Shown piece after piece: positions 4,288-50,775 of a stretch of DNA of 57,910 nucleotides. Within the stretch, counting starts at the first letter, position 1. Each line of letters begins with the position of its first letter. Below the pieces are notes generated by a model. It searched no databases. It worked only from the letters and a program-made list of their open reading frames with translations, and was not told where the DNA came from. Made by a program: the position numbers and the translations under genes. This DNA is from Gracilibacillus lacisalsi DSM 19029 (GTDB taxonomy: Bacteria; Bacillota; Bacilli; Bacillales; Amphibacillaceae): NCBI RefSeq assembly GCF_000377765.1, contig NZ_KB898683.1, positions 1-57,910 on the forward strand. The letters run 5' to 3'.

Positions 4288-4880
4288 ATAAACTGCGAAG
4301 TAATGAAAGTTCTGTCTGAAGTAGCGTGGTAATTAGTTGTGCGGTCACCTAAGAGATAATTTTGAACTATATCGTGATGATAACTACCACTCCGGCTGCC
4401 CACTTCCCTTCCGTGGGGTTTGCCCTTCAGCTAACTTTTTCGAGCAAAAACCACTCGAAGAAGTGGATCTTCAGGTCAAACAGTTCCCACAGGAGTGAAA
4501 GTGGGCGGCCTTCGTTAAGATATACTCCACAACACTTATCCGAAATCAGCCAGTCAATTTCTCCACCATATGTAATGTAGGGTACGACTATGCTAAAGGG
4601 CATTCACAGCCAATTAGTACTGTAATAAAACAGAAAATTTTTATTCCCATGAATTCATTTCTTACTATAATCAGAGAACCAAAATAGCGTAGGCAGAATA
4701 CGGAGACTCCTGTGGGACTCACGAGAGCTGAAGATCCACTTTGCAAAGTGCTTTTCTTTGCAAAGTTAGCTGAAGCCGAGCCCACGGAAAGCGCAGTATT
4801 CTGCCGAAGCGGTATTCGGGTGCACTCTCTATGGGAGGATGGACAGAGCAGATCCTCAAGAGAGTTACTTCGCAGTTTAT
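4288..4880 (+). repeat. TIR-bounded hairpin element, copy 1
   Basis: The left terminal repeat ATAAACTGCGAAGTAA (4288-4303) is matched by the perfect inverse TTACTTCGCAGTTTAT (4865-4880). Inside are two imperfect hairpin modules facing opposite ways. Module A (4394-4510) has an outer stem GGCTGCCCACTT / AAGTGGGCGGCC. Module B (4692-4805) has an outer stem GGCAGAATAC / GTATTCTGCC. Both contain the core CTTCAGCTAACTT ... AAGTGGATCTTCAG. No transposase is encoded, and the short open frames inside are not credible genes. The element fills the 870-base gap between the cysK terminator and folP, where pabB-pabA-pabC stand in B. subtilis. Confidence 0.88.
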
Positions 4881-4902
4881 GTTTACTGCGATGGTTATGC
4901 AA

Positions 4903-4939
4903 AATAAAACCCCGTTTCAATATGAACTGAAACGGGGTT
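4903..4939 (-). terminator. cysK terminator
   Basis: The minus strand reads AACCCCGTTTCA, a loop, TGAAACGGGGTT and a U-rich tail. It lies 38 bases after the cysK stop and 22 bases before the right end of repeat element 1. Confidence 0.92.
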
Positions 4940-4976
4940 GTACTTATTTATTCTCTTTATTAAATCGCCTTGTTGT

Positions 4977-5903
4977 TTATTCTTCGTCAAATTGATAAAG
5001 AGGGGTTGAGAGATAGCGTTCTCCGTTACTTGGAAGAACCGCAAGAACTTTTTTGCCTTTACCAAGTTTTTGTGCTACTTGTTTAGCTGCGTAAATAGCA
5101 GCACCTGAAGATACACCACCAAGTACGCCGTCTTTGCGAGCTGCCTCTCGAGCTGTTTCATAGGCTTGATCATTGGATACCGTAATCACTTCATCATAAA
5201 TATCTGTATCAAGAACTTCTGGTACAAACCCTGCACCGATTCCTTGAATTTTGTGAGGACCCGGTTTACCTCCAGATAATATAGCTGAATCAGTTGGTTC
5301 TACCGCATAAATTTTAATATCCTTGTACTGATCCTTCAAGACTTTACCTGCACCAGTGATTGTTCCACCAGTTCCAATTCCCGAAACAAATGCATCTAGT
5401 TGATCACCCATTTGCTCGACAATTTCTTTACCAGTTGTACGAGCATGAACAGCAGGGTTTGCTACGTTATTAAACTGCTGAGGCATGAAGTAGCCATTTT
5501 CTTTTTGTAATTCTGTTGCTTTCGCAATTGCACCTTTCATACCTTCTGCACCTGGTGTTAATACTAACTCTGCACCATAAGCTCGTAATAGATTACGTCT
5601 TTCCATACTCATTGTATCAGGCATTACTAAAATCGCTTTATAACCTTTAATAGCGGCAACTAATGCTAGACCAATACCAGTATTACCACTTGTTGGTTCA
5701 ATGATGGTTTCTCCGTCTTTTAAAACACCCTCTTCTTCTGCAGCCTCAACCATCGCTAGTGCGATACGATCTTTAACAGAGCTACCAGGGTTCATAAATT
5801 CCAACTTCAAATAAATCTCTGCACCTTCAGGATCCGCTGTGCGATTTAATTTCACAATCGGTGTATTTCCAATCAATTCCGCAACATTTTGAGCTACTTT
5901 CAT
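4977..5903 (-). CDS. cysK: Cysteine synthase (O-acetylserine thiol-lyase)
   Basis: A PLP enzyme that makes L-cysteine from O-acetylserine and sulfide. The 308-residue protein has the PLP lysine in [11 protein letters not shown] (K44) and the TSGNTGIG phosphate/substrate loop at residues 71-78. A glycine-rich GTGGTITG loop binds the PLP phosphate. The start is preceded by GAGGAGG. It has its own promoter and terminator. In Bacillus the gene is under CymR control, but I could not identify a convincing CymR box here. Confidence 0.98.
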
Positions 5904-5948
5904 TCCAGTTCCTCCTCAAATCCAAGTAAAATTATTGGTTTTATATAC

Positions 5949-5977
5949 AATGTACATGAAACGGTATACAATGTCAA
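5949..5977 (-). promoter_or_regulatory. cysK promoter (sigma-A)
   Basis: On the minus strand TTGACA (5972-5977), 17 bases, then TACATT (5949-5954). It sits about 45 bases upstream of the cysK ATG. The spacer and -10 region carry the repeated word TTGTATA/TGTATATAA, which could be a regulator site. That is only a suggestion. Confidence 0.7.
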
Positions 5978-5999
5978 CCCATAAACTGGAAAGGGCTTG

Positions 6000-6920
6000 T
6001 TAATTTTTTTCATTTTTATAGTTTAACTCTACTTCTATTTGATCCCACAGAGCTGAAGCATCTACTTCAGACTGTAATTGATCTAAGGCAATATCTTGAC
6101 GTACTTCCTCATACACTTCATCATAGTTCAATTCAATAGCAGGGAGATGTTGGTGATGGAAGATAATTGCATATCCGTTATTCACTAATATTGGTTCACT
6201 ATATGTCCCCGCCTCTAATGAAATCGCCGTGTCATAGTATTCCCTTGGTATAAAACTGCTTGTCTCAGAATAAAACCCTAAATATCCGCCATCCGTTCCG
6301 CTTTCCTCATCAATGGACAAATCTTTTGCAACCTCATTGAAAGGTTCGCCATCATCCAACCTTGCCATCACATATTCTGCTTCTTGTTGTGTCGAAACGA
6401 GAATATGTGACAGCTGGACCATATCATCAAACTGGTATTGGTTTTGATAAAATTGATAATACTCTTCTATTTCTGCTTCAGAAACACTAACACCTTCACT
6501 TAAAAGTTGTTGTAGATAATAACGATATTTTATTTGCTCGGTCCATTTTTCAATTTTTTTCTCTTTTTTCTCTTCAGATAACAATCCTTGCATTACCATC
6601 ATTCTCGATAATTCTCGGTCGATAATTTTCGGATGGACCTCAAGGTCTTTATCCTCTGCTAACTGAAAAACAACTTCCTTATCAATTAAATCATGTAAAA
6701 CGGATTCGCCATATTGCTCTATTAATTCGCTCATCCAATCTTGATATAAAACTTCCTCATCCCCGATTTCTGCTAAAGGTTGATTACGATCCACCGGATT
6801 CTCATCTAATACTACAAATTCATCTGAGCTGTTTTGTCCTGAAAAGATAAAAATGGTTGTAATATTTGTTATGAGCAATAGTAAAATAATAGACCATAAT
6901 ACCAGACGTGATACCCTCAA
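6000..6920 (-). CDS. yacD: Membrane-anchored PpiC-type peptidyl-prolyl isomerase (YacD/PrsA-like)
   Basis: A 306-residue protein with one N-terminal membrane segment (residues about 6-27, LVLWSIILLLLITNITTIFI). The rest is predicted outside, with a charged SurA-like N-domain and a parvulin (PpiC) domain at about residues 165-255 (VQLSHILVSTQQEAE ... GGYLGFYSE). It probably helps fold exported proteins at the membrane surface. I see no lipobox cysteine, unlike classical PrsA. It lies between hslO and cysK, as in B. subtilis. Confidence 0.88.
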   Translation of the reverse strand: MRVSRLVLWSIILLLLITNITTIFIFSGQNSSDEFVVLDENPVDRNQPLAEIGDEEVLYQDWMSELIEQYGESVLHDLIDKEVVFQLAEDKDLEVHPKIIDRELSRMMVMQGLLSEEKKEKKIEKWTEQIKYRYYLQQLLSEGVSVSEAEIEEYYQFYQNQYQFDDMVQLSHILVSTQQEAEYVMARLDDGEPFNEVAKDLSIDEESGTDGGYLGFYSETSSFIPREYYDTAISLEAGTYSEPILVNNGYAIIFHHQHLPAIELNYDEVYEEVRQDIALDQLQSEVDASALWDQIEVELNYKNEKN

Positions 6921-6935
6921 CTATTACTCCCCCTA

Positions 6936-7808
6936 TTACTCTGTCTTCAATGCCCGCAACTCATCGATCGTAAATTTGTATGTTTCATTACAAAAATGGC
7001 AAGAAGCCGTAGCACCATGATCTTCCCTAATCATCGAATCAATCTCTTCGTTTCCTAAACTTTGGATTGCTGTTTCCAGTCTTTCTTTTGAGCAAGGGCA
7101 AGAAAATTGTACTGGTAAACGCTCATGAACTTTTAGATTTCCTTCACCTAATAACAACTCTAATATCTCATCTGGCTGTTTCCCATCTTGGATCAACTTT
7201 GAAATAGGTGGAACATTGGCAACCTTTTCCTCAATTTGAGCAATGGTTTCTTCTGATGCTCCCGGCATCATCTGTACAATAAATCCTCCAGCAGCTAAAA
7301 TACTATGATCTGGATTGACTAAAACTCCTGCTCCTACCGCTGATGGAACCTGCTCAGAGTTAGCTAAGTAATAGGTGAAATCTTCACTTATTTCTCCAGA
7401 TACAATGGGAACTTGACCAGTAAAATGATTTTTTAAGCCTAAATCTTTAACAATGCTTAATGTTCCCTCGGTTCCAACTGCTCTTCTTACATCCAATTTC
7501 CCTTGTGCATTTGATTCAAAATCGACATGTGGGTTTCCGACATAGCCACGTACTTCCCCTTTAGCATTGGCATCAGCAATGATTGCTCCCATTGGTCCGT
7601 TTCCTTCTACTTTTACCGTCAGCTTGTCTTCACCTTTCAACATCGCACCTAACATCGTGGAAATGGAAAGTGTTCTTCCAAGTGCAGCCGAAGCAGTTGC
7701 CCATGTATCCTGGCGAACTCGCGCCTCTTCTACTGTATCTGTTGAACGGATTGCGTAGGCTCTTACATCTCCGCCAAATGCTGTTGCTTTTAATAAATAG
7801 TCACTCAT
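6936..7808 (-). CDS. hslO: Hsp33 redox-regulated chaperonin
   Basis: A cytosolic holdase activated by oxidation. The 290 residues end in the zinc-binding redox switch with the four expected cysteines, C237 and C239 (CPC) and C270 and C273 (CHFC). The N-terminal domain ([20 protein letters not shown]) is typical. It sits between coaX and yacD, 17 bases after the coaX stop, so the two are probably co-transcribed. Confidence 0.97.
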
Positions 7809-7825
7809 TTATAAACGTCCTTTCT

Positions 7826-8605
7826 TTACGCAAAATCTTGCTCATTCTTTTGGTATATTTCGTACAAACCTTTTAAGGTTAGATAAGGGTCGACGATATC
7901 AATTACAGAGGAGTCTTTGGCAATTAATGTTGCTAAACCTCCTGTGGCGATCACTTTTGGTGACCCTCCAACTTCTTTTTTTATCCGGTTTACGACAGCA
8001 TCTACTTGACCGACGTACCCAAAGTAAACACCAGATTGCATTGCTTCTACCGTTGATTGCCCTAAAACCTGACTTGGCTTTTTCACTTCTATTTTCGGCA
8101 ACTTGGCAGCATTCTGGTATAGAGCTTCTAAAGAAATATTAATGCCCGGGGTGATAACACCACTGACATATTCATCTGCTTCATTGATGTAACAGTAGGT
8201 TGTAGCCGTCCCGAAATCAATAATAATACTCGGGGAACCATATTCTTTAATGACGCCTACTGCGTTGACAACACGATCAGCACCTAACTCTTTAGGATTA
8301 GGGTACTTCATTTTTAAGTATGGATTCACTTTTTCATCACCAATTATCATGGGATTACAATGGAAATATTTATCTGCCATACGCTGCAGGGCAAATAAAA
8401 TTGGTGGAACTACAGATGAGATGACAATACCGTTAATGTCTGAAAATGTTAATCCTTCATGTCCTAATAACGATTTAATAAACATGGCATATTCGTCTTC
8501 TGTTTTGTTTTTGTCCGTTTGCATGCGCCATTGATATGTTAATCGGCCATCATTAAACACTCCTAATACAGTGTTTGTGTTACCAACATCTAATACAAAG
8601 ATCAT
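7826..8605 (-). CDS. coaX: Type III pantothenate kinase
   Basis: Phosphorylates pantothenate in the first step of CoA synthesis. The ATG at 8605 ([17 protein letters not shown]) follows TTTTGGAGGATATT and gives 259 residues, the normal length. The open frame itself extends 25 codons further up without a ribosome site. The ASKHA phosphate-1 motif DVGNTNT is at residues 6-12, and the type III motifs [12 protein letters not shown] and DFGTATT follow. A possible promoter on the minus strand is TTGCGA-18-TACAAT in the 8655-8690 area. I rate this as weak. Confidence 0.96.
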
Positions 8606-8763
8606 AATATCCTCCAAAATATCCAAAAAAATTTGTTTACTTATTTTCATATTGTATAGCTTGCAAGCAACAAGTCGCAAGTTTTATGGTTGTAGACCTA
8701 ACTCACATCAGTTATATCATACACTTGAGAAAACACAAATATTTCAATCCATAAATAAAAAAG

Positions 8764-9305
8764 GCCCTGAAGTAATAACTAATAGATGTTCGGTCACCTA
8801 AGAGATAATTTTGAAATATATCGTGGTGATAACTACCACTCCGGCTGCCCACTTCCCTTTCCGTGGGGTTTGCCCTTCAGCTAACTTTTTCGAGCAAAAA
8901 CCGCTCGAAAAAGTGGATCTTCAGGTCAAACAATTCCCACAGGAGTGAAAGTGGGCGGCCTTCGTTAAGATATGCTCCACAACACTTATCCGAAATCAGC
9001 CAGTCGATTTCTCCACCATATATCACAGAATTACAGCCGATTAGAACTATAGTAAAACAAAAGAATTTAGTTCCGTGAATTCATTCCTTTCTATAATCAG
9101 ATAACAAAAATAGCGTAGGCAGAATACGGAGACTCCTGTGGGACAGCGAGAGCTGAAGATCCACTTTGCAAAGTGGTTTTCTTTGCAAAGTTAGCTGAAG
9201 CCGAGCCCACGGAAAGCGCAGTATTCTGGCGGAGCGGTTTGCATGCACTCTCTAAATGAAGAATGGTAGAGAGCAATTCCTTGTGCTCGTTACTTCACAG
9301 TTTAT
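8764..9305 (+). repeat. TIR-bounded hairpin element, copy 2
   Basis: Same layout as copy 1. Module A is at 8843-8960 and module B at 9118-9230. The right terminal repeat TTACTTCACAGTTTAT (9290-9305) is clear, while the left one is worn (CTGAAGTAATAACTA near 8767). The sequence from GGTCACCTAAGAGATAATTT onward is nearly identical to copies 1 and 4. It fills the gap between coaX and the ftsH terminator. Confidence 0.85.
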
Positions 9306-9324
9306 GTATTCTGTTTCTTGAAGC

Positions 9325-9360
9325 GTAAAAAAGCAGTTCCTTTTTTAGGAACTGCTTTTC
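9325..9360 (-). terminator. ftsH terminator
   Basis: The minus strand has AAAAGCAGTTCC, a 7-base loop, GGAACTGCTTTTTT. It starts immediately after the ftsH stop and lies 19 bases from the right end of repeat element 2. Confidence 0.93.
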
Positions 9361-9363
9361 GTT

Positions 9364-11388
9364 TTATTGTTTATCTTTATCGTCGGACTCTTCAGTTGAT
9401 TTGTCTTGGTCGAAATAGCTTTTTGAATCCTGGTCAAAATAGCTTTCTTCTTCTTCTTTCGGTTGAATGTTTACTTTAAAGTCAGATGACTTGTTATCAT
9501 CTTCCTTTGTATCATCCGTTTCTGTTGGAGATGGTTTTTCTTTACCATCTTGTTCAGAAACTACCGGATCTGGAAGTTTACCATCTTCAAACAGGCCTTT
9601 AATCTGACCAGCATCTAATGTCTCAACCTCTAGTAGAGTCTTCGCTACAAGTTCTAACTTGTCACGATTTTCTGTGAGAATTTGTTTTGCTCTGTTATAA
9701 CATTCTTGGATGAAGTTTTGGATTTCCTGATCGATTTCATATGCAATCGCATCACTGTAGTTTTGCTCATTTTGCATATCGCGACCTAAGAAAACTTGCC
9801 CTCCACCACTTCCAAATTGAAGAGGTCCAATCTTATCACTCATACCATATTCCATTACCATCTTACGAGCAATTCCGGTTGCACGCTGAAAATCATTATG
9901 AGCACCAGTACTTGCTTCACCAAAGATGATTTCTTCAGCTACACGACCACCTAATAAACCGGTGATCTTATCGAACAACTCTGGTTTTGTCATAAAGTAG
10001 CGATCTTCACGCGGAAGCATTACGGCATAACCACCTGCTTGACCACGAGGTACAATCGTTACCTTATGTACCATGTCAGCATCATCTAGCACCATACCAA
10101 TAATCGTATGACCACTTTCATGATAAGCAACAATATTGCGTTCTTTTTCTGAAATAACCCTACTTTTCTTAGCAGGTCCAGCGATGACACGGTCAATTGC
10201 TTCATCTACTGATTCCATATCGATTTTCTCTTTATCATGTCGTGCTGCAACAAGTGCTGCTTCATTTAAGAGGTTTTCAAGGTCTGCACCTGAAAATCCT
10301 GGTGTACGCATAGCGATTGTCTTCAAATCAACATCTTCTGCTAATGGTTTATTACGTGCGTGAACACCTAATACGTCTTGACGACCTTTTAAGTCTGGAC
10401 GATCTACGGTAATTTGACGGTCAAAACGTCCCGGACGTAATAACGCAGGGTCTAAAATATCTGGTCTGTTAGTTGCAGCGATAATGATAATTCCTTCATT
10501 CTCACCGAAACCATCCATTTCAACGAGTAATTGGTTTAAGGTTTGTTCACGTTCATCGTGACCGCCACCTACACCAGCACCACGCTGACGACCTACTGCA
10601 TCAATCTCGTCAATAAAGATAATACATGGTGCATTTTTCTTCGCATTTTCGAATAAATCACGTACACGAGATGCACCAACACCCACAAACATCTCCACGA
10701 AATCCGAACCACTTATAGAGAAGAACGGAACTCCTGCTTCACCTGCAACGGCTCTAGCAAGTAATGTTTTACCTGTACCAGGAGGTCCTACTAGTAAAAC
10801 CCCTTTTGGTATTTTTGCACCAATAGCAGAGAATTTACGTGGATCTTTTAAGAAGTCAACTACTTCTACTAATTCCTGCTTCTCTTCATCCGCACCAGCA
10901 ACATCTCTGAAACGAACTTTTTTCTTCTCTTCATTGTACATTTTCGCCTTACTCTTACCAAAGTTCATCACACGGCTACCACCGCCTTGAGCCTGGTTAA
11001 GTAAGAAGAAAAACAGAATGAATATAATAACAAATGGAATCATGGTCGTTAAGAACGTAACCCATCCACTCGGTTGTTCCTCTTCCTCAATTGTTAATAT
11101 CCCTTGATCTTTAGCGGTATCTTCCACCTGTTCAACGATACCAGGAGTATCTAGGATATTAGTCATAAAGGGTTTATCATCTTGCTCTAATTCCCCTACC
11201 ACACGTATTACACCATTGGAAGGGCGCATTTCCATTTCTTTGATTTGGTTATTTTCCAATGCTTGCATAAATTCGTTTACTTTTAATTCTTCAGCCTGGT
11301 TGTTTTGGCTGCTGAATACTGATATGATCCCTATCACAACTAAAAAGATTACGAAATAGAGGATCACATTACGTATAATCCGATTCAT
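9364..11388 (-). CDS. ftsH: ATP-dependent zinc metalloprotease FtsH
   Basis: A membrane AAA+ protease for quality control and regulated proteolysis. Two membrane segments (residues about 5-25 and 110-132) flank a small external domain. Walker A GPPGTGKT is at 201-208, Walker B IIFIDEID near 256-263, the second region of homology near 305-325, and the zinc site HESGH at 423-427. The 674-residue length is slightly above B. subtilis FtsH because of an acidic C-terminal tail. That tail contains a direct repeat SYFDQD twice within 15 residues. It stands alone between hprT and repeat element 2. Confidence 0.98.
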
Positions 11389-11485
11389 TGCCTACCTCCT
11401 CCCGAAACGAGAAAACTATAGTAAATAGTATCATATTGCAAGACTTTATGACAACTAATTACAACTGACCTTTGTTTGATTTTAA

Positions 11486-12031
11486 TTATTCTTCGCCACC
11501 ATAAACTTCTGGCTTCAAAATACCAATATATGGTAAGTTTCGATATTTCTCTTGATAATCTAGTCCATAACCCACCACAAATTCATTTGGCACTTCAAAA
11601 CCTACTACATCTGCTTTAATATCAACAGTTCTTCCTTCAGGTTTATCTAATAATGTGACAATTTTAATAGAATTTGCCTGACGATACTTAAATAAATCAA
11701 CTAAATAACTTAATGTTAGACCACTATCAATGATGTCTTCAATAATTAAAATATCACGGCCCTCTACCTTTGTGTCTAAATCTTTCACGATTTTAACTTC
11801 ACCAGAGGAACGCATTTCATTCCCGTAACTTGAAACATCCATAAAATCCATTTCTAGGTGTGTATCAATCGAACGTAAAATATCCGACATAAAAGGTAAT
11901 GCACCTTTCAACACACCAACCGCTAACGGAAACCTTCCTTCATATTCTTTGGTTAACTGCTCACCAAGCTCTTGACATTTCGCTTGTATTTGCTCTTCGG
12001 AAATTAATATTTCCTTTATCTCATCATGCAT
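11486..12031 (-). CDS. hprT: Hypoxanthine phosphoribosyltransferase
   Basis: Salvages hypoxanthine and guanine with PRPP. The 181 residues contain the PRPP motif [13 protein letters not shown] (about 94-106) and the flexible-loop region MDVSSYG. It follows tilS by 11 bases, the conserved tilS-hprT-ftsH order in Firmicutes. In B. subtilis TilS and HprT together activate ftsH expression. That is knowledge of the family, not something visible here. Confidence 0.97.
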
Positions 12032-12042
12032 CTTGCTGCCTC

Positions 12043-13452: not shown

Positions 13453-13518
13453 ACACCACCACCCCATCCAATCTTGTTTACATTATTTTAACATAATATG
13501 AATGATAAAATCTTTTTA

Positions 13519-14463: not shown

Positions 14464-15169
14464 CGCTCGTAAATCTCCTTCGTAACGTCTTCTTACCAAA
14501 TTGATACATGGCTTCTTTTAAAGCAGGCCCAGTCGGTGTAATACCACCGCTTGATATTTTGGCAAAAATAGAAGTGATGGAATCTAGTTTCGATGTCCAA
14601 TCTACTAATTGTTGAATCGGCTTCTTCCGTCCCGGGAATTGATATACAGCAAAACGGCTTCGCCCAATTCTTGCATTCATACTGATGGAAAGATCAATAA
14701 GAGCTTCTTGAACAGTTGGTAGTTTATTGGTCATACTAGCACTTGTATCAACGAGTACTAATACTTCTAAATCACAAGTCTCTCCTAGTTCGTCCACTAC
14801 TTCCATTACCTCCCCACGCTGATCTGGAGGTAATTCTTCCATTGTTTTTTCACTACCTAAGATTTGCTTTAATTCATTATTCACCACACCTTGCAACGTT
14901 TCCGTCATCGCTTGTTTGGTCACAGTTTGAACGGTCTGTGCTAAGGCATCCTGATAAACAATTTGACTAACCCCTTGGCCGTTTTCAGAGATTTCTTCTA
15001 CTTCTTCCAATCCCTCTGGTTGTTCTGTATGATCATCTTCTAATATGCCAATGACATTAACCGTAATTCCTTGTTCGGCTACTAAACTAGCTACTAGTGC
15101 TGGATCTTCTCCTTGGTTCGAGCAACCATCCGTAATTAAAAGAATTTGTTTAAGTGTCCCCGTTTTCAT
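14435..15169 (-). CDS. yabS: von Willebrand factor A domain protein YabS
   Basis: A 244-residue cytosolic protein. The ATG at 15169 (MKTGTLKQILLITDG) follows TAGGAGGAAAATGT. The upstream part of the frame (16 codons) has no ribosome site. The vWA fold shows a DTSAS MIDAS-type motif (VLVLVDTSASMTNKL) around residue 155 and ITPTGPALKEAM later. It is followed directly by the kinase yabT, an spoIIE-yabS-yabT cluster typical of Bacillaceae. The precise role is unknown. Confidence 0.88.
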   Translation of the reverse strand: MKTGTLKQILLITDGCSNQGEDPALVASLVAEQGITVNVIGILEDDHTEQPEGLEEVEEISENGQGVSQIVYQDALAQTVQTVTKQAMTETLQGVVNNELKQILGSEKTMEELPPDQRGEVMEVVDELGETCDLEVLVLVDTSASMTNKLPTVQEALIDLSISMNARIGRSRFAVYQFPGRKKPIQQLVDWTSKLDSITSIFAKISSGGITPTGPALKEAMYQFGKKTLRRRFTSDDYTDIEEA

Positions 15170-17988: not shown

Positions 17989-18062
17989 GGCGGTGTAGCT
18001 CAGCTGGCTAGAGCGTACGGTTCATACCCGTGAGGTCGGGGGTTCGATTCCCTCCGCCGCTA
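17989..18062 (+). tRNA. tRNA-Met (CAU), elongator type
   Basis: A complete 74-base cloverleaf. The acceptor arm is GGCGGTG / CGCCGCT with discriminator A, the D arm GCTC...GAGC, and the anticodon arm TACGG-TTCATAC-CCGTG with anticodon CAT. The T arm is GGGGG-TTCGATT-CCCTC. The CCA end is not encoded. The anticodon stem lacks the three G-C pairs of initiator tRNA, and the sequence does not look like tRNA-Ile2, so it is elongator tRNA-Met. It is the only gene besides abrB on the plus strand. Confidence 0.96.
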
Positions 18063-18101: not shown

Positions 18102-18139
18102 ATATAAACTAATACAACTCTATTTGATTCGATGTAGAT

Positions 18140-18699
18140 ATATACTGCGAAGTAATGAAAGCTCTATTTGTTCAAAGTAATGTGATACGGTAATCTAAGG
18201 CATAATTTTGATATATATCGTGATGATAATTACCACTCCGGCTGCCCACTTCCCTTTCCGTGGGGTTTGCCCTTCAGCTAACTTTTTCGAGCAAAAACCG
18301 CTCGAAAAAGTGGATCTTCAGGTCAAACAATTCCCTCAGGAGTGGAAGTGGGCGGCCTTCGTTAAGCTATGCTCCACAACACTTATCCGAAATAATCCAG
18401 TCGTTTTCTTCACCATATGTAACATAGGGTACGTCTATGGAAAAGGGGCATTCCCAGCCAATTATCACTGTAATAAAACAGAAAAATTTAATTCCATGAG
18501 TTCATTTCTTTCTATAATTAGAGAACTAAAATAGCGGAGGCAGAATACGGAGACTCCTGTGGGACAGCGAGAGCTGAAGATCCACTTTGCAAAGTTAGCT
18601 GAAGCCGAGCCCACGGAAAGCGCCGTATTCTGCCGGAGCGGTATTCGGTGCACTCTCTATGGGAGGTTGGACAGCGTAGATCCTCGAGATAGTTTTATG
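18140..18699 (+). repeat. TIR-bounded hairpin element, copy 3
   Basis: Left terminal repeat ATATACTGCGAAGTAA (18140-18155). The right one is damaged to AGTTTTATG (about 18691-18699). Module A is at 18240-18357. Module B (18539-18634) has lost its inner hairpin: GATCCACTTTGCAAAG joins directly to TTAGCTGAAGCC. It lies between the tRNA-Met terminator and the yabR terminator. Confidence 0.84.
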
Positions 18700-18779
18700 T
18701 ATTTGTGTTAATATGTTTATTTGCGAAGGATTCTATAGTTAATCCAGTACCTCCATTCTATACACTTACCCCTTACACT

Positions 18780-24058: not shown

Positions 24059-24175
24059 CAGACACGTGACATCTAGATGAAAAAACAGTCGATCATTCCC
24101 CAATTCATATATCGCTTCAATCTTTAGTAACAAAGAAAAACCAAATCATGCACTGTTATCAGATTCGCAGTCGAT

Positions 24176-24753
24176 ATAAACTGCAAAGTAATGTGGTAAT
24201 TAGATGTGCGGTCACCTAAGAGATAATTTTGAAATATATCGTGATGATAACTACCACTCCGGCTGCCCACTTCCCTTTCCGTGGGGTTTGCCCTTCAGCT
24301 AACTTTTTCGAGCAAAAACCACTCGAAAAAGTGGATCTTCAGGTCAAACAGTTCCCACCGGAGTGAAAGTGGGCGGCCTTCGTTAAGCTATGCTCCACAA
24401 CACTTATCCGAAATCAGCCAGTCGATTTCTCACCATATGTAGTTTTGGAAGTCGCATTTTCTACAGCTTAGTATACAATTCTGATCAAGTGACAAGAAAT
24501 TCAAAGAGTTTAGTTCCATGAGTTCTATCCTTTCTATAATCAGAGCACAACAATAGCGTAGGCAGAATACGGAGACTCCTGTGGGACTCACGAGAGCTGA
24601 AGATCCACTTTGCAAAGTGGTTTTCTTTGCAAAGTTAGCTGAAGCCGAGCCCACGGAAAGCGCAGTATTCTGCCGGAGCGGTTTGCATACCACTCTCTAA
24701 GTCAAGAATGATGGTAGAGAGCAATTCCTTGTCCTCGTTACTGCGCAGTTTAT
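24176..24753 (+). repeat. TIR-bounded hairpin element, copy 4
   Basis: Terminal repeats ATAAACTGCAAAGTAA (24176-24191) and TTACTGCGCAGTTTAT (24738-24753). Module A is at 24261-24378 and module B at 24561-24674, both with complete inner hairpins. The central linker between the modules differs from copies 1, 3 and 6 (it contains GTCGCATTTTCTACAGCTTAGTATA-like sequence shared with copy 5). The element lies between yabM and the ptsG terminator. Confidence 0.87.
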
Positions 24754-24778
24754 GGATACTATGCACTAAAATTGATTG

Positions 24779-27884: not shown

Positions 27885-28070
27885 ACTCTCCACCTCCCTT
27901 TCCACCATAACACATTACACTATTGTACTAAAAACCGCCAAAGATATCACCTATAATGAGTAAATGAAGCAGGAATAATGTCCCATCCATTATTTCAAAT
28001 GAACTATAGAACACGATATTAGAATTCGTATAACAAAATAACGCTTACTCTCAACAACTGCAAATTAGAT

Positions 28071-28548
28071 ACATACTGCGAAGTAATGAAAATTCTGTTT
28101 AGTATAACATTCTTCCATTCTTATGAATTTGAGTGCTAATTCGTCGCTGCGGAAAAATACTCCCTTTCCGTGGGCTCGGCTTCAGCTAACTTGGTAAAGA
28201 AAACCACTTTACCAAGTGGATCTTCAGCTCTCGCTGTCCCACAGGAGTGTCGCATTTTTCCGCAGCTTAGTATACTGTTCTGATCAAGTGACAGGAAACC
28301 CAAAAAGCTTAATTCCTTGAGTTCATTTCTTTCTATAATTGGAACACATTAATTAGCAGAGGCAGAATACGGAGACTCCTATGGGAACAGTACGAGCCGA
28401 AGACCCCGCAGGAAAGCGATTTTGGCTTTCCGAGGAAGCTAAGGCCGTGCCCATGGAAAGCGCAGTATTCTGCCGGAGCGATTTGTTGCACTCTCCAAGG
28501 AAAGAATGGAGGAGAGTAAATCAATGTCCACTTTACTTCACAGTTTAT
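28071..28548. repeat. TIR-bounded hairpin element, copy 5 (variant modules)
   Basis: Terminal repeats ACATACTGCGAAGTAA (28071-28086) and TTACTTCACAGTTTAT (28533-28548). The left module (28146-28266) keeps the core CTTCAGCTAACTT / AAGTGGATCTTCAG but has another outer stem, GCTGCGGAAAAATAC / TTTTTCCGCAGC. The right module (28361-28474) keeps the GGCAGAATAC / GTATTCTGCC outer stem but has a different core, CCGAAGACCCCGCAGGAAAGC / GCTTTCCGAGG.AGCTAAGGC. It lies between glcT and the spoVT terminator. Confidence 0.85.
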
Positions 28549-28577
28549 CTATTTAGCGCGCCATTTTTACTTCTAAA

Positions 28578-37267: not shown

Positions 37268-37364
37268 TAAAGATGGCATAATTTAAATAACTATAATATG
37301 GCAACATTTTAATATTGATGGCTCAGTGATAATAAATAATTAAAATTGTAATAATGAAGTCGAT

Positions 37365-37927
37365 ATAAACTGCGAGATAATTAGATGTGCGTTCACCTAA
37401 GAGATAATTTTGAAATATATCGTGATGATAACTACCACTCCGGCTGCCCACTTCCCTTTCCGTGGGGTTTGCCCTTCAGCTAACTTTTTCGAGCAAAAAA
37501 CCCTCGAAAAAGTGGATCTTCAGGCCAAACAATTCCCTCAGGAGTGAAAGTGGGCGGCCTTCGTTAAGATATGCTCCACAACACTTATCCGAAATCAGCT
37601 AGTCGATTTCTCCACCATATGTAGCGTAGGGTACGACTATGCTTAAGGGGCATTCACACCCAATTAGTACTGTAATAAAACAGAAAAATTTAGTCCCATG
37701 AGTTCATTTTTTTCTATAAATCAGAGAACAAAAATAGCGTAGGCAGAATACGGAGACTCCTGTGGGAACTCACGCGAGCCGAAGACCCCACAGGAAAGCG
37801 ACTTTTGCTTTCCGAGGAGGCTAAGGCCGTGCCCATGGAAAGCGCAGTATTCTGCCGGAGCGAATGACAACACTTCTCAAAATAACAGATCGAAAGAGAG
37901 CAATTCCTTCGTTACTGCGCAGTTTAT
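37365..37927 (+). repeat. TIR-bounded hairpin element, copy 6 (hybrid modules)
   Basis: The left end ATAAACTGCGAGATAA is shortened against other copies, and the right end TTACTGCGCAGTTTAT (37912-37927) is intact. The left module (37442-37559) is type A. The right module (37742-37857) has the GGCAGAATAC / GTATTCTGCC outer stem, but the alternative core GCCGAAGACCCCACAGGAAAGC seen in copy 5. This element therefore combines the two core types. It lies between glmU and the spoVG terminator. Confidence 0.86.
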
Positions 37928-37965
37928 GGATTATGTGCAGATATTTTATGTATACGATGACAAAA

Positions 37966-38004: not shown

Positions 38005-38013
38005 ACCCTTGTT

Positions 38014-40485: not shown

Positions 40486-40655
40486 CTGAAGATACTCCCT
40501 TTCTGTCGTGTTTTACGACAACCTTATTTTATGTTTTTCACTTTTTATGATACAAGGTAATAAAAGGGTGAAAGACATCTTGTTGGCACTTTAAATTGCA
40601 TGAGCAGTCACATGCTTAGATGATATCACAATTACTGCATTATTAACCGAATTAG

Positions 40656-41084
40656 ATAAATACTGTGAAATAATGAAAAGAGAAAAAGTGAGGCTTTCTC
40701 CCACTCTGATTAATGATGAATTGCTCACATACGCTCCGGCAGAATACTGCGCTATTTTTGTTATCTGATTATAGAAAGAAATGAACTCATGGAACAAAAC
40801 TTTTCTACAGTACTAACCCTTTTAGCATAGTCGTACCCTACGCAACATATAGTGGAGCATATCTTAACGAAGGCCGCCCACTTTCACTCCTGTGGGAATT
40901 GTTTGACCTGAAGATCCACTTTTTCGAGTGGTTTTTGCTCGAAAAAGTTAGCTGAAGGGCAAACCCCACGGAAAGGGAAGTGGGCAGCCAGAGTGGTAGT
41001 TATCATCATGATATATTTCAATCTCTTAATGCAGTACGAGTACGGGAGGAGAACAAATCTATGTTCAGTTACTGCGCAGTCTAT
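40656..41084 (-). repeat. TIR-bounded hairpin element, copy 7 (inverted, module B collapsed)
   Basis: Terminal repeats ATAAATACTGTGAAATAA (from 40656) and TTACTGCGCAGTCTAT (41069-41084). The interior runs opposite to copies 1-4 and 6. Module A is at 40874-40989 in reverse complement. At 40735-40765 only one arm of module B remains: CGCTCCGGCAGAATACTGCG is followed at once by the linker. It lies between the veg terminator and sspF, in the slot next to the absent yabG. Confidence 0.85.
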
Positions 41085-41112
41085 AAATTATGTGTCTCTT
41101 TAATTTTTATAA

Positions 41113-41421: not shown

Positions 41422-41493
41422 ATTATACTACATTCTTGTCCAACCGTCAATTAAAAATATTCCATTATACCAATTATAATTGAAAGCTGTCAA
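41422..41493 (-). promoter_or_regulatory. Tandem veg promoters (sigma-A)
   Basis: On the minus strand the proximal promoter is TTGACG (41445-41450), 17 bases, TATAAT (41422-41427). The distal is TTGACA (41488-41493), 18 bases, TATAAT (41464-41469). The two lie 42 bases apart. The proximal one corresponds to the strong veg promoter of B. subtilis. Confidence 0.88.
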
Positions 41494-41548
41494 CAAAAAA
41501 ATTGGAAGTTATGTGTTTAGCTTACCTTTTTTTAAGAAAATTATGTAT

Positions 41549-43022
<1,474 letters not shown>

Positions 43023-43133
43023 AAAAGGCTCCTCCATTCTTACTTAAGATAGCTTATTGATACGTTTCCAGATGACCTAACTTTCGAGTAGAAGTTTTGC
43101 TTATACCTACTCATAACCTTTCTCATTTTAACA

Positions 43134-43169
43134 CAAAAAAGCTTACCTTTGCTTCGAAAGGTAAGCTTT
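43134..43169 (-). terminator. yabE terminator
   Basis: The minus strand has AAAGCTTACCTTT-CGAAG-AAAGGTAAGCTTTTTT just after the yabE stop. Confidence 0.92.
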
Positions 43170-43173
43170 GTAT

Positions 43174-44418: not shown

Positions 44419-44449
44419 GAACTCTTCCCTCCTTTTTACTCGCCGTTGT

Positions 44450-44478
44450 ATTATATAAAGATCCTTTTTCAGTGTCAA
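44450..44478 (-). promoter_or_regulatory. yabE promoter (sigma-A)
   Basis: Perfect TTGACA (44473-44478), 17 bases, perfect TATAAT (44450-44455) on the minus strand, 32 bases upstream of the yabE ATG. Confidence 0.92.
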
Positions 44479-44494
44479 ATGGCGTTATGAAAAG

Positions 44495-44537
44495 CAAAAA
44501 GCAGCAAAACCCTTGAATTCAAAGGGTTTTGCTGCTT
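44495..44537 (-). terminator. yabD terminator
   Basis: A near-perfect hairpin AAGCAGCAAAACCCTTTGAA / TTCAAGGGTTTTGCTGCTTTTT on the minus strand, about 70 bases after the yabD stop. The yabE promoter starts just beyond it. Confidence 0.94.
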
Positions 44538-44606
44538 ATTTTTATGAAATATTTCAGTTTGTTTACATTACCGTAACATCACCTGAAACATTTGCTGCTA
44601 AAGGCA

Positions 44607-45380
44607 TCATCCGTTTTTTAGACCGAAAAATCGTTTGGCGTTTTCAGTTGTTTGCTTACTTATTTCTTCATAACTCACATCACGCAGTTCTGCTATTTTT
44701 TCTGCAACCAACTTGACATAAGCAGGCTCGTTTCTTTTTCCCCGATTAGGATGTGGCGCGAGAAATGGGCAATCTGTTTCGATTAATAAACGATCTGCTG
44801 GTACATACTTTGCTACTTCCTTCGGTAAAGTAGCATTTTTAAACGTTACTGGTCCACCAAGTGATATATAAAAGTTCATCTTTAAGCATGCATCAACATA
44901 GTCAACAGAATCATTGTAACAATGCATAATACCACCAACTTCTTCTGCTTTTTCTTCTTGCAATACTTGGATGATATCCTCTGTCGCCTCCCGATTATGA
45001 ATAATAATGGGTAAGTTGACTTTTTTGGCTAACTGAATTTGCTTGCGAAAAACTTCTTGTTGTACATCTTTCGGCGACTTGTCCCAATGATAATCTAGGC
45101 CCATTTCTCCTAAAGCGACTACTTTTGGGTGTGAGGACAATTCTTCTAACCATGCTAGTTCTTTGTCGGTCATATCGATAGCATCAACTGGATGCCAACC
45201 GACTGCAGCATAAATATGGTCATATTGTTCGGCCATCTCTATTGCTTTCGGGATCGTTTCATGATCAAATCCAACAATGACCATGTTTTCGACACCAGCC
45301 TCTTTCGCTCTTTGTAATACTTCCTCACGGTCTTCATCAAAATGCGATACGTTTAAATGAACGTGTGTATCAAATAACAT
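44607..45380 (-). CDS. yabD: TatD-family metal-dependent hydrolase YabD
   Basis: A 257-residue TIM-barrel deoxyribonuclease-like hydrolase. Metal ligands are visible in FDTHVHLN (about 3-10), GEMGLDYHWD, IIHNREA, GGIMHCYND and IETDCPFLAPHP. It lies between metS and yabE, as in B. subtilis. The substrate in vivo is uncertain (TatD proteins act in DNA repair or tRNA/D-amino acid processing). Confidence 0.94.
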   Translation of the reverse strand: MLFDTHVHLNVSHFDEDREEVLQRAKEAGVENMVIVGFDHETIPKAIEMAEQYDHIYAAVGWHPVDAIDMTDKELAWLEELSSHPKVVALGEMGLDYHWDKSPKDVQQEVFRKQIQLAKKVNLPIIIHNREATEDIIQVLQEEKAEEVGGIMHCYNDSVDYVDACLKMNFYISLGGPVTFKNATLPKEVAKYVPADRLLIETDCPFLAPHPNRGKRNEPAYVKLVAEKIAELRDVSYEEISKQTTENAKRFFGLKNG

Positions 45381-45445
45381 ACTTCTTCCTCCTTAAAAAA
45401 ACAGACTAAACCGATTCTCCCCTGCTCGTCTCATTCATAGTTGAT

Positions 45446-45694
45446 ACAAACTGCGAAGTAGTAGCTTAGTTGCAAAGTTAACAGGACTTCTCTTCCAGGG
45501 ATATCTCTTTCTGTTCCGAGGATACCTCTTTCCCTTCCCTGGATATCCTTTGCTGTTCCGGGGATATGCTCTTCTCTTCCCTGGATATAGTCGTTTAACC
45601 TCGGAAGAGAAGATCTTTTCCCTGGAAGAGAAGCCTTTTTCCTCGGAACAGAGGGGATATCTCTTTTCCATATCCACGTTACTTCGCAGTCTAT
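45446..45694. repeat. TIR-bounded element, copy 8, carrying an inverted array of 21-bp units
   Basis: The ends ACAAACTGCGAAGTAG (45446-45461) and TTACTTCGCAGTCTAT (45679-45694) match the family, but the inside is different. Five direct 21-bp units run from 45490 to 45594, with consensus near CTSTTCCNGGGATATNCTCTT. They are followed by three to four units in inverse orientation (about 45597-45672). Read as protein, 21 bp gives a 7-residue repeat such as IPGTEKD, but no start or ribosome site supports a gene. It lies between yabD and the metS terminator. Confidence 0.85.
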
Positions 45695-45709
45695 TTTTTT
45701 GTGCATAAA

Positions 45710-45756
45710 TAAAAAGTACACACACGTTTTCAAATGGAATGTGTGTATACTTTTTG
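45710..45756 (-). terminator. metS terminator
   Basis: The minus strand has AAAAAGTATACACACATTCC, a loop, CGTGTGTGTACTTTTT after the metS stop. Confidence 0.9.
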
Positions 45757-45760
45757 ATAT

Positions 45761-47725
<1,965 letters not shown>

Positions 47726-47765
47726 TCAATACATTTTTATCTATATATAAACAGTCTGCTTTCAT

Positions 47766-47858
47766 TGTAGCGATTTTTCGAACAATTTTCCATTATAAAT
47801 ACATTGTCACCATTTATTTTATGTTTAAAACATCTAAAATTGTCGAAAAATCACTACA
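47766..47858. repeat. Long inverted repeat between metS and abrB, with TGTCGAA-like words
   Basis: The arm TGTAGCGATTTTTCGAACAA.. (47766-47789) and its near-perfect inverse at 47836-47858 (ends in TCACTACA) agree at about 22 of 24 positions and are 46 bases apart. Each arm contains a 0A-box-like word (TTTTTCGAA / TTGTCGAAAAA). A TATAAT for metS lies between the arms on the minus strand. It could be an operator or a cruciform/leader structure shared by metS and abrB. Confidence 0.7.
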
Positions 47859-47921
47859 AACTAGTGACTTGTATTTCTTCAATTTTTTTATAAAAGCTTG
47901 AAAAAAATGAGAAAATTAAGT

Positions 47922-47950
47922 TTGACAATAATGGCAACTAATGGTATTAT
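47922..47950 (+). promoter_or_regulatory. abrB promoter (sigma-A)
   Basis: Perfect TTGACA (47922-47927), 17 bases, TATTAT (47945-47950), about 55 bases upstream of abrB. Confidence 0.9.
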
Positions 47951-47961
47951 AACGCTATAGA

Positions 47962-47978
47962 TGTCGAATATTGCCGAA
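47962..47978 (+). promoter_or_regulatory. Tandem Spo0A boxes in the abrB leader
   Basis: TGTCGAA (47962-47968) and TGCCGAA (47972-47978) are spaced exactly 10 bases apart just downstream of the expected transcription start. The same arrangement represses abrB through Spo0A-P in B. subtilis. Confidence 0.85.
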
Positions 47979-48005
47979 TTTATTTATCAAAGGGGAGAAT
48001 AAATA

Positions 48006-48284
48006 ATGAAATCAACAGGTATTGTGAGAAAGGTAGACGAGCTTGGTCGTGTTGTAATTCCGATCGAACTACGTCGAACATTAGGAATCGAAGAGAAAGA
48101 TGCTCTTGAAATTTATGTCGATGATGAGCGTATCATATTACAAAAATATAAACCAAATATGACTTGTCATATTACTGGTGATATCTCTGACGACAACTTT
48201 ACATTAGCAGATGGAAAACTAGTACTTAGTCCTGAAGGTGCTCAGACACTAGTTGACGAAATCCAAAACAAATTAAACAAATAA
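48006..48284 (+). CDS. abrB: Transition-state regulator AbrB
   Basis: A 92-residue DNA-binding global repressor of post-exponential genes. The N-terminal swapped-hairpin domain is MKSTGIVRKVDELGRVVIPI (residues 1-20 onward to about 50), and a short C-terminal multimerisation region follows. It is the only protein gene on the plus strand, the same inverted placement as in B. subtilis. AAAGGGGAG precedes the ATG. Confidence 0.97.
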   Translation: MKSTGIVRKVDELGRVVIPIELRRTLGIEEKDALEIYVDDERIILQKYKPNMTCHITGDISDDNFTLADGKLVLSPEGAQTLVDEIQNKLNK

Positions 48285-48292
48285 AGATACAT

Positions 48293-48326
48293 AAAAACCC
48301 TGTTTCATGATTGAAACGGGGTTTTT
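48293..48326. terminator. Bidirectional terminator between abrB and rsmI
   Basis: AAAAACCCTGTTTCA-TGAT-TGAAACGGGGTTTTT is T-rich on both sides and lies between two converging genes. The stem resembles the cysK terminator. Confidence 0.92.
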
Positions 48327-48332
48327 ATTTGT

Positions 48333-49199
48333 TTACTCTATATGATAAGCATTGTATACTTCTCTTTTGGGAATATGGCGCTTTTTTGCTACAGCTTTGA
48401 TGGCTTCTTTACTTGAATATCCCTCTAATTCCATTTCTTTTTCGACATGCTCTTTTATGGTAAGATCTGTCCACCATTTCGTTTGTGGATTATCCTTAAT
48501 TCCTTCCACAACAATACAGCACTCACCTTTTATCGAGTTATCTGCTATCCACTCTTCTATTTCTGGTAATCTCCCTCTTATATATTCTTCGTATCTCTTG
48601 GTTAACTCCCTTGCTATTGCTACTTGTCTGTCACCAAGTGATTCGCTTAACAACTTGATTGTCTCGTTAATACGGTGTGGTGATTCATACAAGATAAACG
48701 TTGTATCCATTGATTGCAGTAATTGTAGTGCCTGATCACGATCTTTTTTCTTTCGTGGCAAAAAGCCATAAAAGTAAAAATGATCAGTTGGTAACCCTGA
48801 ACCAACTAAGGCTGATAATGCGGCGTTTGCCCCAGGTAATACCACAACGGTAAGATCTCTTTGAATGGCAGCTTGTACTACTTCAAATCCTGGATCTGAG
48901 ATTCCTGGCATACCTGCATCACTAACTAGAGCTAAATTTTCCCCATTACTTAGCATCTCAAGAATTTGATCCTGTCTTGCCATTTTGTTATGTTCATGGT
49001 AGCTGATCATCTTTTGCTTCAGTTCAAAATGATGTAACAGCTTCCCAGTATTTCTCGTATCTTCAGCTAAAACAGCATCAGCCTCTTCCAATATACGTAA
49101 TGCTCGAATCGTAATATCTTCTAAATTGCCGATTGGTGTCGGCACTACGTATAATGTGCCTTTTTCATTATCAGTCTGGTAGCTCTTCTGTATCTGCAT
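48333..49199 (-). CDS. rsmI: 16S rRNA 2'-O-methyltransferase RsmI
   Basis: Methylates the 2'-OH of C1402 in 16S rRNA with SAM. The tetrapyrrole-methylase fold shows LYVVPTPIGNLEDITIRALR, AEDTRNTGKLL, SDAGMPGISDPGF and VVLPGANAALSAL. I placed the start at the ATG at 49199 ([11 protein letters not shown]), 9 bases after AAAGGT, which gives 288 residues. ATG 49208 is too close to that site. It overlaps yazA by 29 bases. Confidence 0.95.
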   Translation of the reverse strand: MQIQKSYQTDNEKGTLYVVPTPIGNLEDITIRALRILEEADAVLAEDTRNTGKLLHHFELKQKMISYHEHNKMARQDQILEMLSNGENLALVSDAGMPGISDPGFEVVQAAIQRDLTVVVLPGANAALSALVGSGLPTDHFYFYGFLPRKKKDRDQALQLLQSMDTTFILYESPHRINETIKLLSESLGDRQVAIARELTKRYEEYIRGRLPEIEEWIADNSIKGECCIVVEGIKDNPQTKWWTDLTIKEHVEKEMELEGYSSKEAIKAVAKKRHIPKREVYNAYHIE

Positions 49200-49476
49200 A
49201 TACGCCATACCTTTCCGTTTGGTTTTCTTTAATCCATAATTCCTTCTGCTTTCTAGTAAGCTTTTTAATTTTTGCTTCTAACTGCATTGCTTCTGATTTT
49301 GTCTTACATTGTTGTTGGTACTGCAATTGAAATGGGGCTCTACCTCTTGTATATTTAGCACCCTTACCTTGTTCATGCATTTTCATCCTTCGTTCGATAT
49401 CGGTTGTATAGCCTGTATATAATGTTTCATCTTTACATTTAAGAATATAGACAAAATGATTATTTTTTTCTCCCAT
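49171..49476 (-). CDS. yazA: GIY-YIG domain protein YazA
   Basis: A 101-residue single-domain GIY-YIG nuclease-like protein: [20 protein letters not shown] with the VYI...LYTGYT variant motif, then [20 protein letters not shown]. It sits between trmN6 and rsmI with overlaps on both sides. The role is not established. Confidence 0.92.
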
Positions 49477-50206
49477 ATAGTATACCTTCTACCTCTTTTG
49501 TATAATTTCCCTCTCCATCGAAAGCATATAATGGCGACAAAAGCTTGAGATCTGGATTTCCATCTCTAATTCCTTCTATTAATAATATATTTGCTTCTTT
49601 TCCTTCTTTAGGATACACGAAACGAACACGCTTTGGTTCTATTTTATATTGCCTGAATAAAGTAATAATATCGACAAAACGTGACGGACGATGGACCATA
49701 GCTACTTTCCCACCTGATTTAACGAGTTTACTACACGATTGTACCACATCTTCTAACGTACAAAAGATTTCGTGTCTTGCAATTGTTAGATAGTCATTAT
49801 GATTTTGATGATTTTTATTCTCAGTCTCGAAATAAGGAGGATTAACGGTTACTAAATCAAATTTGTTATTTTTGAAGTGATCCGGCATATCCTTTAAATC
49901 ACCATGGATCATATTAATTTGATGGTCCAGCTTGTTCAGCTCAATACTGCGGCATGCCATGTCATATAGACGTGCTTGAATTTCGACTCCTGTAATGGGG
50001 ACGTTAGATTGTCTTGATAATAACAGTGGGATAACGGCATTACCTGAGCAAAGATCCAGTATTTTTCCTCTTGTTTTTGGTGTTGTAGCGAAGTCTGCCA
50101 GTAGCACAGCATCGATGGAAAAGGCAAACTTAGTCGGGCTTTGAATGATTTGCATGGTTTGATCTGCTAACAGATCATCAATACGTTCGTCTTCTTTAAG
50201 TTGCAT
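49460..50206 (-). CDS. trmN6: tRNA (adenine-N6)-methyltransferase-like protein TrmN6/YabB
   Basis: A class I SAM methyltransferase of 248 residues. Motif I is [13 protein letters not shown] (about 47-59) and the N6-adenine motif NPPY is in VTVNPPYFE. The ATG at 50206 ([15 protein letters not shown]) has AAGGAGA upstream. The same frame stays open for 57 more codons, but those lie inside repeat element 9 and should not be annotated as protein. The likely target is A37 of tRNA-Val by family analogy. Confidence 0.92.
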
Positions 50207-50240
50207 TTGTTTATCTCCTTCAATAAAGTGCATAATTGAT

Positions 50241-50775
50241 ATATACTGCGAAGTTGTGAAAGTTTGTGAAGTGAGGTTTTCCTCCATTCTTTCCATAGGA
50301 AGTACTGGAACACCGCTCCGGCAGAATACTCCGCTTTCCGTGGGCTCGGCTTCAGCTAACTTGGTGAAGAAAGGCACTTCACCAAGTGGATCTTCAGCTC
50401 TCGCTGTCCCACAGGAGTCTCCGTATTCTGCCTACGCTATTAGATAATTCTACTTTTATAAGAAGAAACACTCGGAAACCAATACCCGTGTATTACTTCT
50501 TTCAGAATTTAGAACAATACGCTAAGCGGAGGCAAGATACGTGGACTCCTACGGGAACAGCGCGAGCCGAAGACCCCGTGATGCACCTGCGTCTTCTAGT
50601 AACGCTTCGAAGTGGCTTCCTCGGTGCAAGGGAGCAAAGAAGATGATTCCAAGTAGTTCCCTGGCTAAGGCCGTGCCCGTGGAAAGCGAAGTATCTTGCC
50701 GGAGCGCATGTAAGCACTCATCAAAATGCAGTACGGGAAGAGAGCAAATCCTTGCCATGTTGTTACGCAGTATAT
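50241..50775. repeat. TIR-bounded hairpin element, copy 9 (expanded right module)
   Basis: Terminal repeats ATATACTGCGAAGTTG (50241-50256) and a shortened TTACGCAGTATAT (50763-50775). The left module (50320-50432) is a B type in reverse orientation. The right module (50531-50700) has an outer stem GGCAAGATAC / GTATCTTGCC and an enlarged interior of about 110 bases. That interior has extra small stems (for example TGCACC / GGTGCA) in place of the simple core. It lies between trmN6 and the yabA terminator. Confidence 0.83.

Follow-up and report, generated by a model that had tools for sequence, protein, structure and literature searches.

We analysed a family of non-coding intergenic elements in Gracilibacillus lacisalsi DSM 19029, nine of which lie within a single stretch of 57,910 nucleotides, referred to here as the window (C22:1-57910; the assembly comprises 4.4 Mb in 44 contigs). 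The window has rRNA pieces at both termini, its genes include spoIIE, mfd, ftsH, and metG, and the nine elements (249 to 593 bp) all lie between long reading frames, which are on one strand throughout. An initial annotation had described nine copies with shared inverted ends, all in gaps between genes, and this description holds. The 16-bp end with at most 3 mismatches is matched 14 times in the window versus 0.89 expected, a number reached in 0 of 100 shuffles. A 30-bp weight matrix, trained on G. lacisalsi copies that include the nine of the window, recovered 16 of the 18 expected ends at a score of at least 10, and none in one shuffled window. The two missed ends look like losses: the element at 8764 has an eroded left end, and in the one at 18140 the right end is without the core of its inner half. 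Of the annotated spans, one was adjusted, as the seventh element pairs best from 40658 rather than 40656, and the spans total about 4.5 kb, not 4.6. Other genomes compared carry G labels below, and fetched loci carry L labels.

All nine elements are read on the + strand, from a left (L) to a right (R) end. Element 1 (4276 to 4892, core 4288-4880, 593 bp) has both ends intact, with a dihydropteroate synthase gene on its left and a terminator at its right. In element 2 (8752 to 9317, core 8764-9305) the L end is the eroded one and the R end is intact, and the FtsH gene lies to the right. Element 3 (18128 to 18711, core 18140-18699) has an intact L end and an R end lacking most of its inner half; its terminator lies at the L side, behind a + strand tRNA. 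This tRNA-Met (17989-18062), which adjoins the element, is on the strand opposite that of the window's long reading frames. Both ends are present in element 4 (24164 to 24765, core 24176-24753), which has an unrelated interior at the equivalent place in G009; in element 5 (28059 to 28560, core 28071-28548), whose interior is largely common to G009 (0.89 covered); and in element 6 (37353 to 37939, core 37365-37927), the family reference. Element 7 (40646 to 41096, core 40658-41084), again with both ends, has its interior inverted relative to the reference. Element 8 (45434 to 45706, core 45446-45694) is a short form with a different interior, which is common to G009; G002 has a longer, unrelated interior at the equivalent place. 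Element 9 (50229 to 50787, core 50241-50775) has both ends and a DNA fold with a z score of -9.5.

Structure and distribution of the family

The ends were aligned from 95 oriented copies, 46 from G. lacisalsi and 49 from G002. Conservation extends about 16 to 20 bp outward beyond the annotated 16-mer, and each end therefore forms a dyad, with an outer half and an inner one. The two ends differ, the consensus on the two sides of the dyad centre being CTAATTCGTAGTAGAT and ACAAACTGCGAAGTAATG for L, and AAAATAATGCACAAAATAC and ATAAACTGCGAAGTAAC for R. The ends of element 4 serve as examples: its L end (24164 to 24191, + strand) consists of the outer half TTCGCAGTCGAT plus an inner half, set against the family consensus TTCGTAGTAGAT and AYAAACTGCGAAGTAATG about the centre, and its R end (24738 to 24765, - strand) of the outer half TGCATAGTATCC plus an inner half, set against TGCACAAAATAC and ATAAACTGCGAAGTAAC. 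The outer half is variable and the inner half nearly constant. Six core bases agree within each end type but differ between L and R; at inner position +16, 102 of 109 L ends have T and 77 of 109 R ends have C.

The interiors consist of hairpin modules, which have matches in other Bacillaceae genomes as well. Of the whole copies, two gave a better fold than shuffled sequences, with z scores of -5.3 as RNA and -9.5 as DNA. In the hairpin module, of which 147 copies were found and 43 retained after thinning, 97.2% of cells are paired, and changes on both sides number 152 versus a mean of 38 and a maximum of 50 after shuffling. An example with compensatory changes, as judged from pairing across module copies, lies within element 4 at 24554 to 24682 (+ strand). 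The interior is inverted relative to the ends in 6 of the 25 G. lacisalsi copies that strongly match the reference interior.

The family has copies far beyond the window, as the initial annotation proposed. An end with at most 2 mismatches occurs 101 times in the G. lacisalsi genome versus 4 times for a reversed control. Our set for this genome comprises 53 copies (53 pairings, less 3 duplicate pairings, plus 3 window copies added by hand), with 22 single ends excluded. Over 136 paired copies, with pairs allowed up to 1 kb, the median is about 475 bp and the longest 922 bp. The annotation's view of the elements as non-coding, with a variable interior and no transposase of their own, also agrees with our results; since the interiors vary from species to species, they are unlikely to encode a conserved protein. 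The longest copy (L022, contig C3:311097-312018) is one broken by a transposase fragment. By eye, this fragment resembles the C-terminus of an IS110-family enzyme; palindromic repeats are insertion sites of IS110 elements.

Searched as a whole, the element has matches in 22 of 41 genomes including that of G. lacisalsi, in most of them through internal hairpin modules only. Of 17 genomes in the genus, 12 have the end with at most 1 mismatch, again including G. lacisalsi; G007 has a single end match, equal to the control and thus at chance level, and G010 has two. A scan of named genomes also found the family in Gracilibacillus suaedae, G. orientalis, and Virgibacillus subterraneus. Several draft contigs end within copies, namely, C25, C44, C46, and C52 of G009, in near-identical copies, and C4, C18, and C24 of G016. 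The family is therefore a place where assemblies break, and draft genomes may undercount its copies. Viral contigs contain 10 end matches; in a search for carriers, phage records gave no match and plasmid records one, to an internal module only. The elements have no Rfam match at the gathering score, and the window gives rRNA and tRNA only. Among the literature titles and abstracts listed, a scope that lies largely outside subscription papers, there is no description of the family; searching under the genus name returned one unrelated paper, and searching under a string of the Bacillaceae module returned nothing.

Docks and their interiors in related genomes

Comparison between genomes shows that the copies are long-lived docks, in which the outer L and R half-ends and the flanks are fixed while the non-coding interior of hairpin modules is exchangeable. 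The sites of the window keep an end in G002 at 9 of 9, in G009 at 8 of 8 assessable, and in G016 at 4 of 7 assessable places. In G012 and G013, whose flanking genes are about 70 to 80% identical, a recognizable end is found at 3 of 9 and 2 of 9 window sites, respectively. At one gap that is empty in the window, G012 and G013 have the right end and flanks in common and differ in their interiors.

Interiors, by the same kind of comparison, are replaced over evolution by ones that resemble the interiors of other copies within that genome, with replacement stopping at about the dyad centre. Each of the nine window interiors is covered over 94 to 100% by one G. lacisalsi paralog, and the orthologous G009 site covers 0.21, 0, 0.89, 0.05, 0.32, and 1.0 of the six that can be compared. 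Across 14 sites shared with G009 (two cut by contig ends, and one with a G. lacisalsi copy that is a 115-bp piece), a single paralog covers 81 to 100% of the G. lacisalsi interior in every case; the orthologue covers less than 35% at 6 of the 14. In locus L087 (about 14849-15090), the G009 counterpart of window position 24176, a different interior with GCGGACATT motifs stands between ends of the same kind; it has the look of another intergenic repeat.

The position of the break was examined in 99 orthologous end pairs from G. lacisalsi, G009, and G002, unfiltered and with orthology assigned by 300 bp of outer flank; these are not independent, since the three genome pairs share sites. At outer positions -12 to -3, the mismatch is 0.306 between orthologous ends versus 0.493 between random partners, and 0 of 300 permutations were as low. 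Bases -3 to -1 are slightly closer than random (0.246 versus 0.288, permutation fraction 0.017). Orthologous ends are no closer than random ones at inner positions 0 to 16 (0.186 versus 0.181) or at positions 16 to 45 (0.575 versus 0.587). For the 22 pairs of G. lacisalsi and G009 only, the orthologous and random values are 0.187 and 0.528 in the outer part, 0.151 and 0.138 in the inner part, and 0.552 and 0.560 at 16 to 45. The locus signal breaks at position 0 for L ends and near -3 for R ends.

Recent transfers between docks of one genome give the same picture. In G009, the interiors of L201, L202, and L203 are 99.6% identical over 502 bp and sit in different docks, and a fourth dock shows no difference across the 345 bp compared. 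Among the fetched loci, the G. lacisalsi orthologues of L201 and L202 have a 75%-identical and an almost unrelated interior, respectively. Two G002 copies, at 531645 and 577104, are 98.7% identical over 477 bp, with different outer halves, and their match stops 3 bp outside each dyad centre. What the initial annotation missed is that the change lies in the interior, inside fixed outer half-ends, a pattern unlike that of ordinary mobile DNA.

These observations bear on the MITE-like mobility that had been proposed for the family. As a classical MITE, the element would be inserted and removed as whole copies by a trans-acting transposase, with the docks as target hot spots that fresh copies refill. 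Inverted ends, small size, lack of coding capacity, and high copy number all suit this idea, and the outer halves could reflect a target preference. The movement of whole copies was nevertheless not demonstrated, as the orthologous gaps in close relatives, which the annotation had named as the place to look for empty sites, are mostly occupied, with different interiors at equivalent places. The fetched loci, most of which were chosen for holding an end, contain 97 candidate empty docks versus 118 in shuffled sequence, and thus no excess. No clean empty site was found that would show or exclude a target duplication, and none was seen. Nor did an autonomous partner appear among the 100 G. lacisalsi end matches listed, inspected by eye for facing pairs 1 to 4 kb apart, or in the fetched loci, a search that decayed ends would escape. 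Refilling by a MITE is, on this evidence, quite improbable.

Several individual loci deserve mention. The only facing pair at 1 to 4 kb in the fetched loci, a 2.85-kb candidate at L179, was taken as chance, because one of its ends falls within a coding frame. L208 was considered as a clean empty site and rejected, because the place is taken in G. lacisalsi and G002 by other sequence that includes a gene, and G016 has what by eye is a remnant. At L222 and L223 (G. lacisalsi contig C18; G002 near 2,492,000), the gap that holds an element in G009 holds related sequence in G. lacisalsi and G002, including, by eye, a membrane-protein-like reading frame.

Orientation and the mode of exchange

Comparison of their surroundings shows that most docks run from a terminator in the direction of the following gene, and that they follow the replichore. 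For these counts, genes are long reading frames rather than annotated ones. Among 52 typed G. lacisalsi copies, an intrinsic terminator points at the R end in 36, at the L end in 3 (element 3 being one of these exceptions), and at neither or both equally in 13. Of the copies between tandem genes, 35 of 39 are co-oriented with the genes. In G002, which has a complete chromosome, orientation follows the replichore in 46 of 50 paired copies, where the boundary of 2.6 Mb was chosen after the flip in orientation was seen, the origin was assumed to be near coordinate 0, and 24 single ends were excluded. The flip lies between 2.547 and 2.619 Mb, and a single dif-like site, located afterwards, is at 2,577,416. 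Four tandem pairs in G002 run against the replichore, with three copies following the fork and one the genes, and three other copies follow neither. Either transcription or replication may be the cause.

Fork orientation and hairpins could be explained together by REPIN or IS200/IS605-type elements, which would move as single strands through a Y1 transposase, and the initial annotation had suggested a REPIN-like family. REPINs, with their RAYT transposases, are palindromic, intergenic, and multicopy. Besides the hairpins and the replichore orientation, the lack of any visible duplication fits, and Y1 matches occur in 12 of the 17 genus genomes. These do not co-occur with the ends, however: G. 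lacisalsi, G002, G004, and G011 carry ends and have no Y1 match, and G005, G006, G008 (83% complete), and G014 have Y1 and no end at 0 to 1 mismatches. A RAYT gene flanked by element ends, which the annotation had proposed to look for, was absent from nine Y1 loci of relatives (L192-L200) selected from the listed Y1 matches, of which L200 has a short match to an internal module. We consider such an origin very improbable. Retrohoming of a group II intron, prompted by the terminator-side position, was also set aside, as the G. lacisalsi genome has no reverse transcriptase (PF00078) match.

Stable placement could also mean that the host selects the elements locus by locus, as transcribed leaders, insulators, or chromosome-organizing sites, and thereby keeps their ends. 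Position and orientation are kept in relatives with flanks about 87 to 94% identical, the ends adjoin terminators and are sometimes close to the start of the next gene, and the hairpins are kept by compensation. The lack of an Rfam match, the often unrelated interiors at orthologous sites, and the sites without a recognizable end in G016, G012, and G013 speak against this, and we give it little credence. Selfish persistence of the elements is our default.

Our preferred explanation is that the copies are long-lived docks whose interiors are swapped, as far as the dyad centre, when copies recombine ectopically, with homologous conversion as the leading mode; we put its probability at slightly below one half. 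Exchange would take place between resident copies and be non-reciprocal, most likely as gene conversion triggered by breaks or stalls at the long hairpins. The homologous repair system would carry it out, using the conserved inner half and the adjoining arm as homology, and the dyad centre would mark the edge of the unit originally inserted, which a recombinase may have placed. In a linkage test, inner-half variants were weakly and unevenly tied to the adjoining interior, which scattered conversion endpoints predict.

Several results weigh against this explanation. Docks also decay, since G016 is without an end at 3 of 7 assessable sites. At 6 of the 14 sites shared with G009, the orthologue covers at least 85% of the interior, at about 75 to 93% identity (flanks are mostly near 93%). 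In the pair of G009 and G002, bases 16 to 30 are closer than random (0.421 versus 0.500, about 1 in 300 permutations), the one respect in which a register filter on the end pairs changes the picture. Locus signal drops off abruptly, at 0 for L and about -3 for R, instead of fading over 0 to 16; this edge fits a cut at the dyad centre better, and gene conversion needs repeated rounds to saturation to produce it. Finally, the outer halves share a consensus and yet are not homogenized, for which plain gene conversion needs a second assumption.

The abrupt edge points to the alternative that a tyrosine recombinase, perhaps the host XerC/XerD, recombines L with L and R with R ends at the 6-bp core and so swaps interiors as dif modules do. 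The clearest recent pair, that in G002, stops 3 bp outside each centre, and the inner halves of the two ends, if joined, would give a near-perfect palindrome at the level of the consensus. The core bases and position +16 are alike within an end type and different between types, though these bases were used in typing the ends. Aligned centre on centre, the R end matches the genus dif at 18 of 28 bases (P = 5e-5 versus shuffled dif) and the L end at 16 of 28 (P = 0.0025); with free register, the P value is 0.011, and the register was fixed after the match was seen. The weak linkage of inner-half variants to the interior counts against a purely site-specific exchange. Exact joined inner halves were found in none of 235 loci or the viral contigs, where assemblies would rarely show a circle, and 0 of 6 G. 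lacisalsi tyrosine recombinase matches have an end within their locus of about 3.5 kb. We regard exchange by such an enzyme as possible but unlikely.

Two recombinase loci of G. lacisalsi were noted along the way. L217 (contig C7:77807-78328) has an internal-module match, without element ends, near a tyrosine recombinase gene. L219 (contig C6:221615-222097) holds a small stand-alone tyrosine recombinase, a frame of 186 amino acids and a candidate enzyme, adjoining what by eye is an antiporter-like gene.

Both enzymologies fit, with results against each; homologous conversion is the simpler of the two, and we give it the lead. In the boldest form of the site-specific alternative, about 50 fixed, fork-oriented docks would have their interiors shuffled at a dif-like dyad by a site-specific recombinase, most daringly XerC/XerD. 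This we hold to be doubtful; if true, the machinery of chromosome resolution would keep a gene-free, selfish pool of modules in circulation.

Implications and relation to known systems

Intergenic repeats are usually judged mobile by their presence or absence at each site. In this family, presence at a site is largely stable while content changes, so that a site and what it contains have different histories, and the boundary between the two is only a few bases wide. The conserved position of a repeat need not mean conserved sequence or function. The family provides a natural assay of how dispersed repeats exchange sequence and a test case for how far Xer-like sites extend beyond dif and plasmids. 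In addition, because orientation is linked to the replichore, a single complete chromosome allows a direct test of how replication contributes to the placement or retention of the elements.

Among known repeats, the family resembles MITEs and BOX elements. The BOX elements of Streptococcus pneumoniae, in the parts of that report available to us, are old insertions of varying size with predicted stem-loops (PMC3049150), and like them our elements are non-coding composite repeats with set ends and a variable interior. The two differ in what varies, which in BOX is the number of boxB units, whereas here whole unrelated interiors are exchanged, with the edge at the centre of the end dyad; replacement of the interior within fixed half-ends does not figure in those parts of the BOX report. 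A repeat listing of our elements gave non-identical hairpin modules, set against the boxA-boxB(n)-boxC arrangement by description only. The elements also share their stem-loop character with bcr1, Bhal-1, and Bant-1, which are interspersed repeats of 72 to 167 bp in Bacillus genomes according to the portion of the source available (PMC2267715), a comparison likewise made by description. They are unlike REPIN/RAYT systems in that the G. lacisalsi genome is without a Y1 (RAYT-type) transposase match.

Site-specific exchange has a precedent in the plasmid dif (pdif) modules of Acinetobacter. In these, as far as the accessible text of the report goes, left cores match left and right cores match right, and one module replaces another (PMC13141974). 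Like pdif modules, the elements are short units between two inversely oriented sites. Unlike them, they are chromosomal, present in tens of copies per genome, without genes, and like the genus dif at only 16 to 18 of 28 bases.

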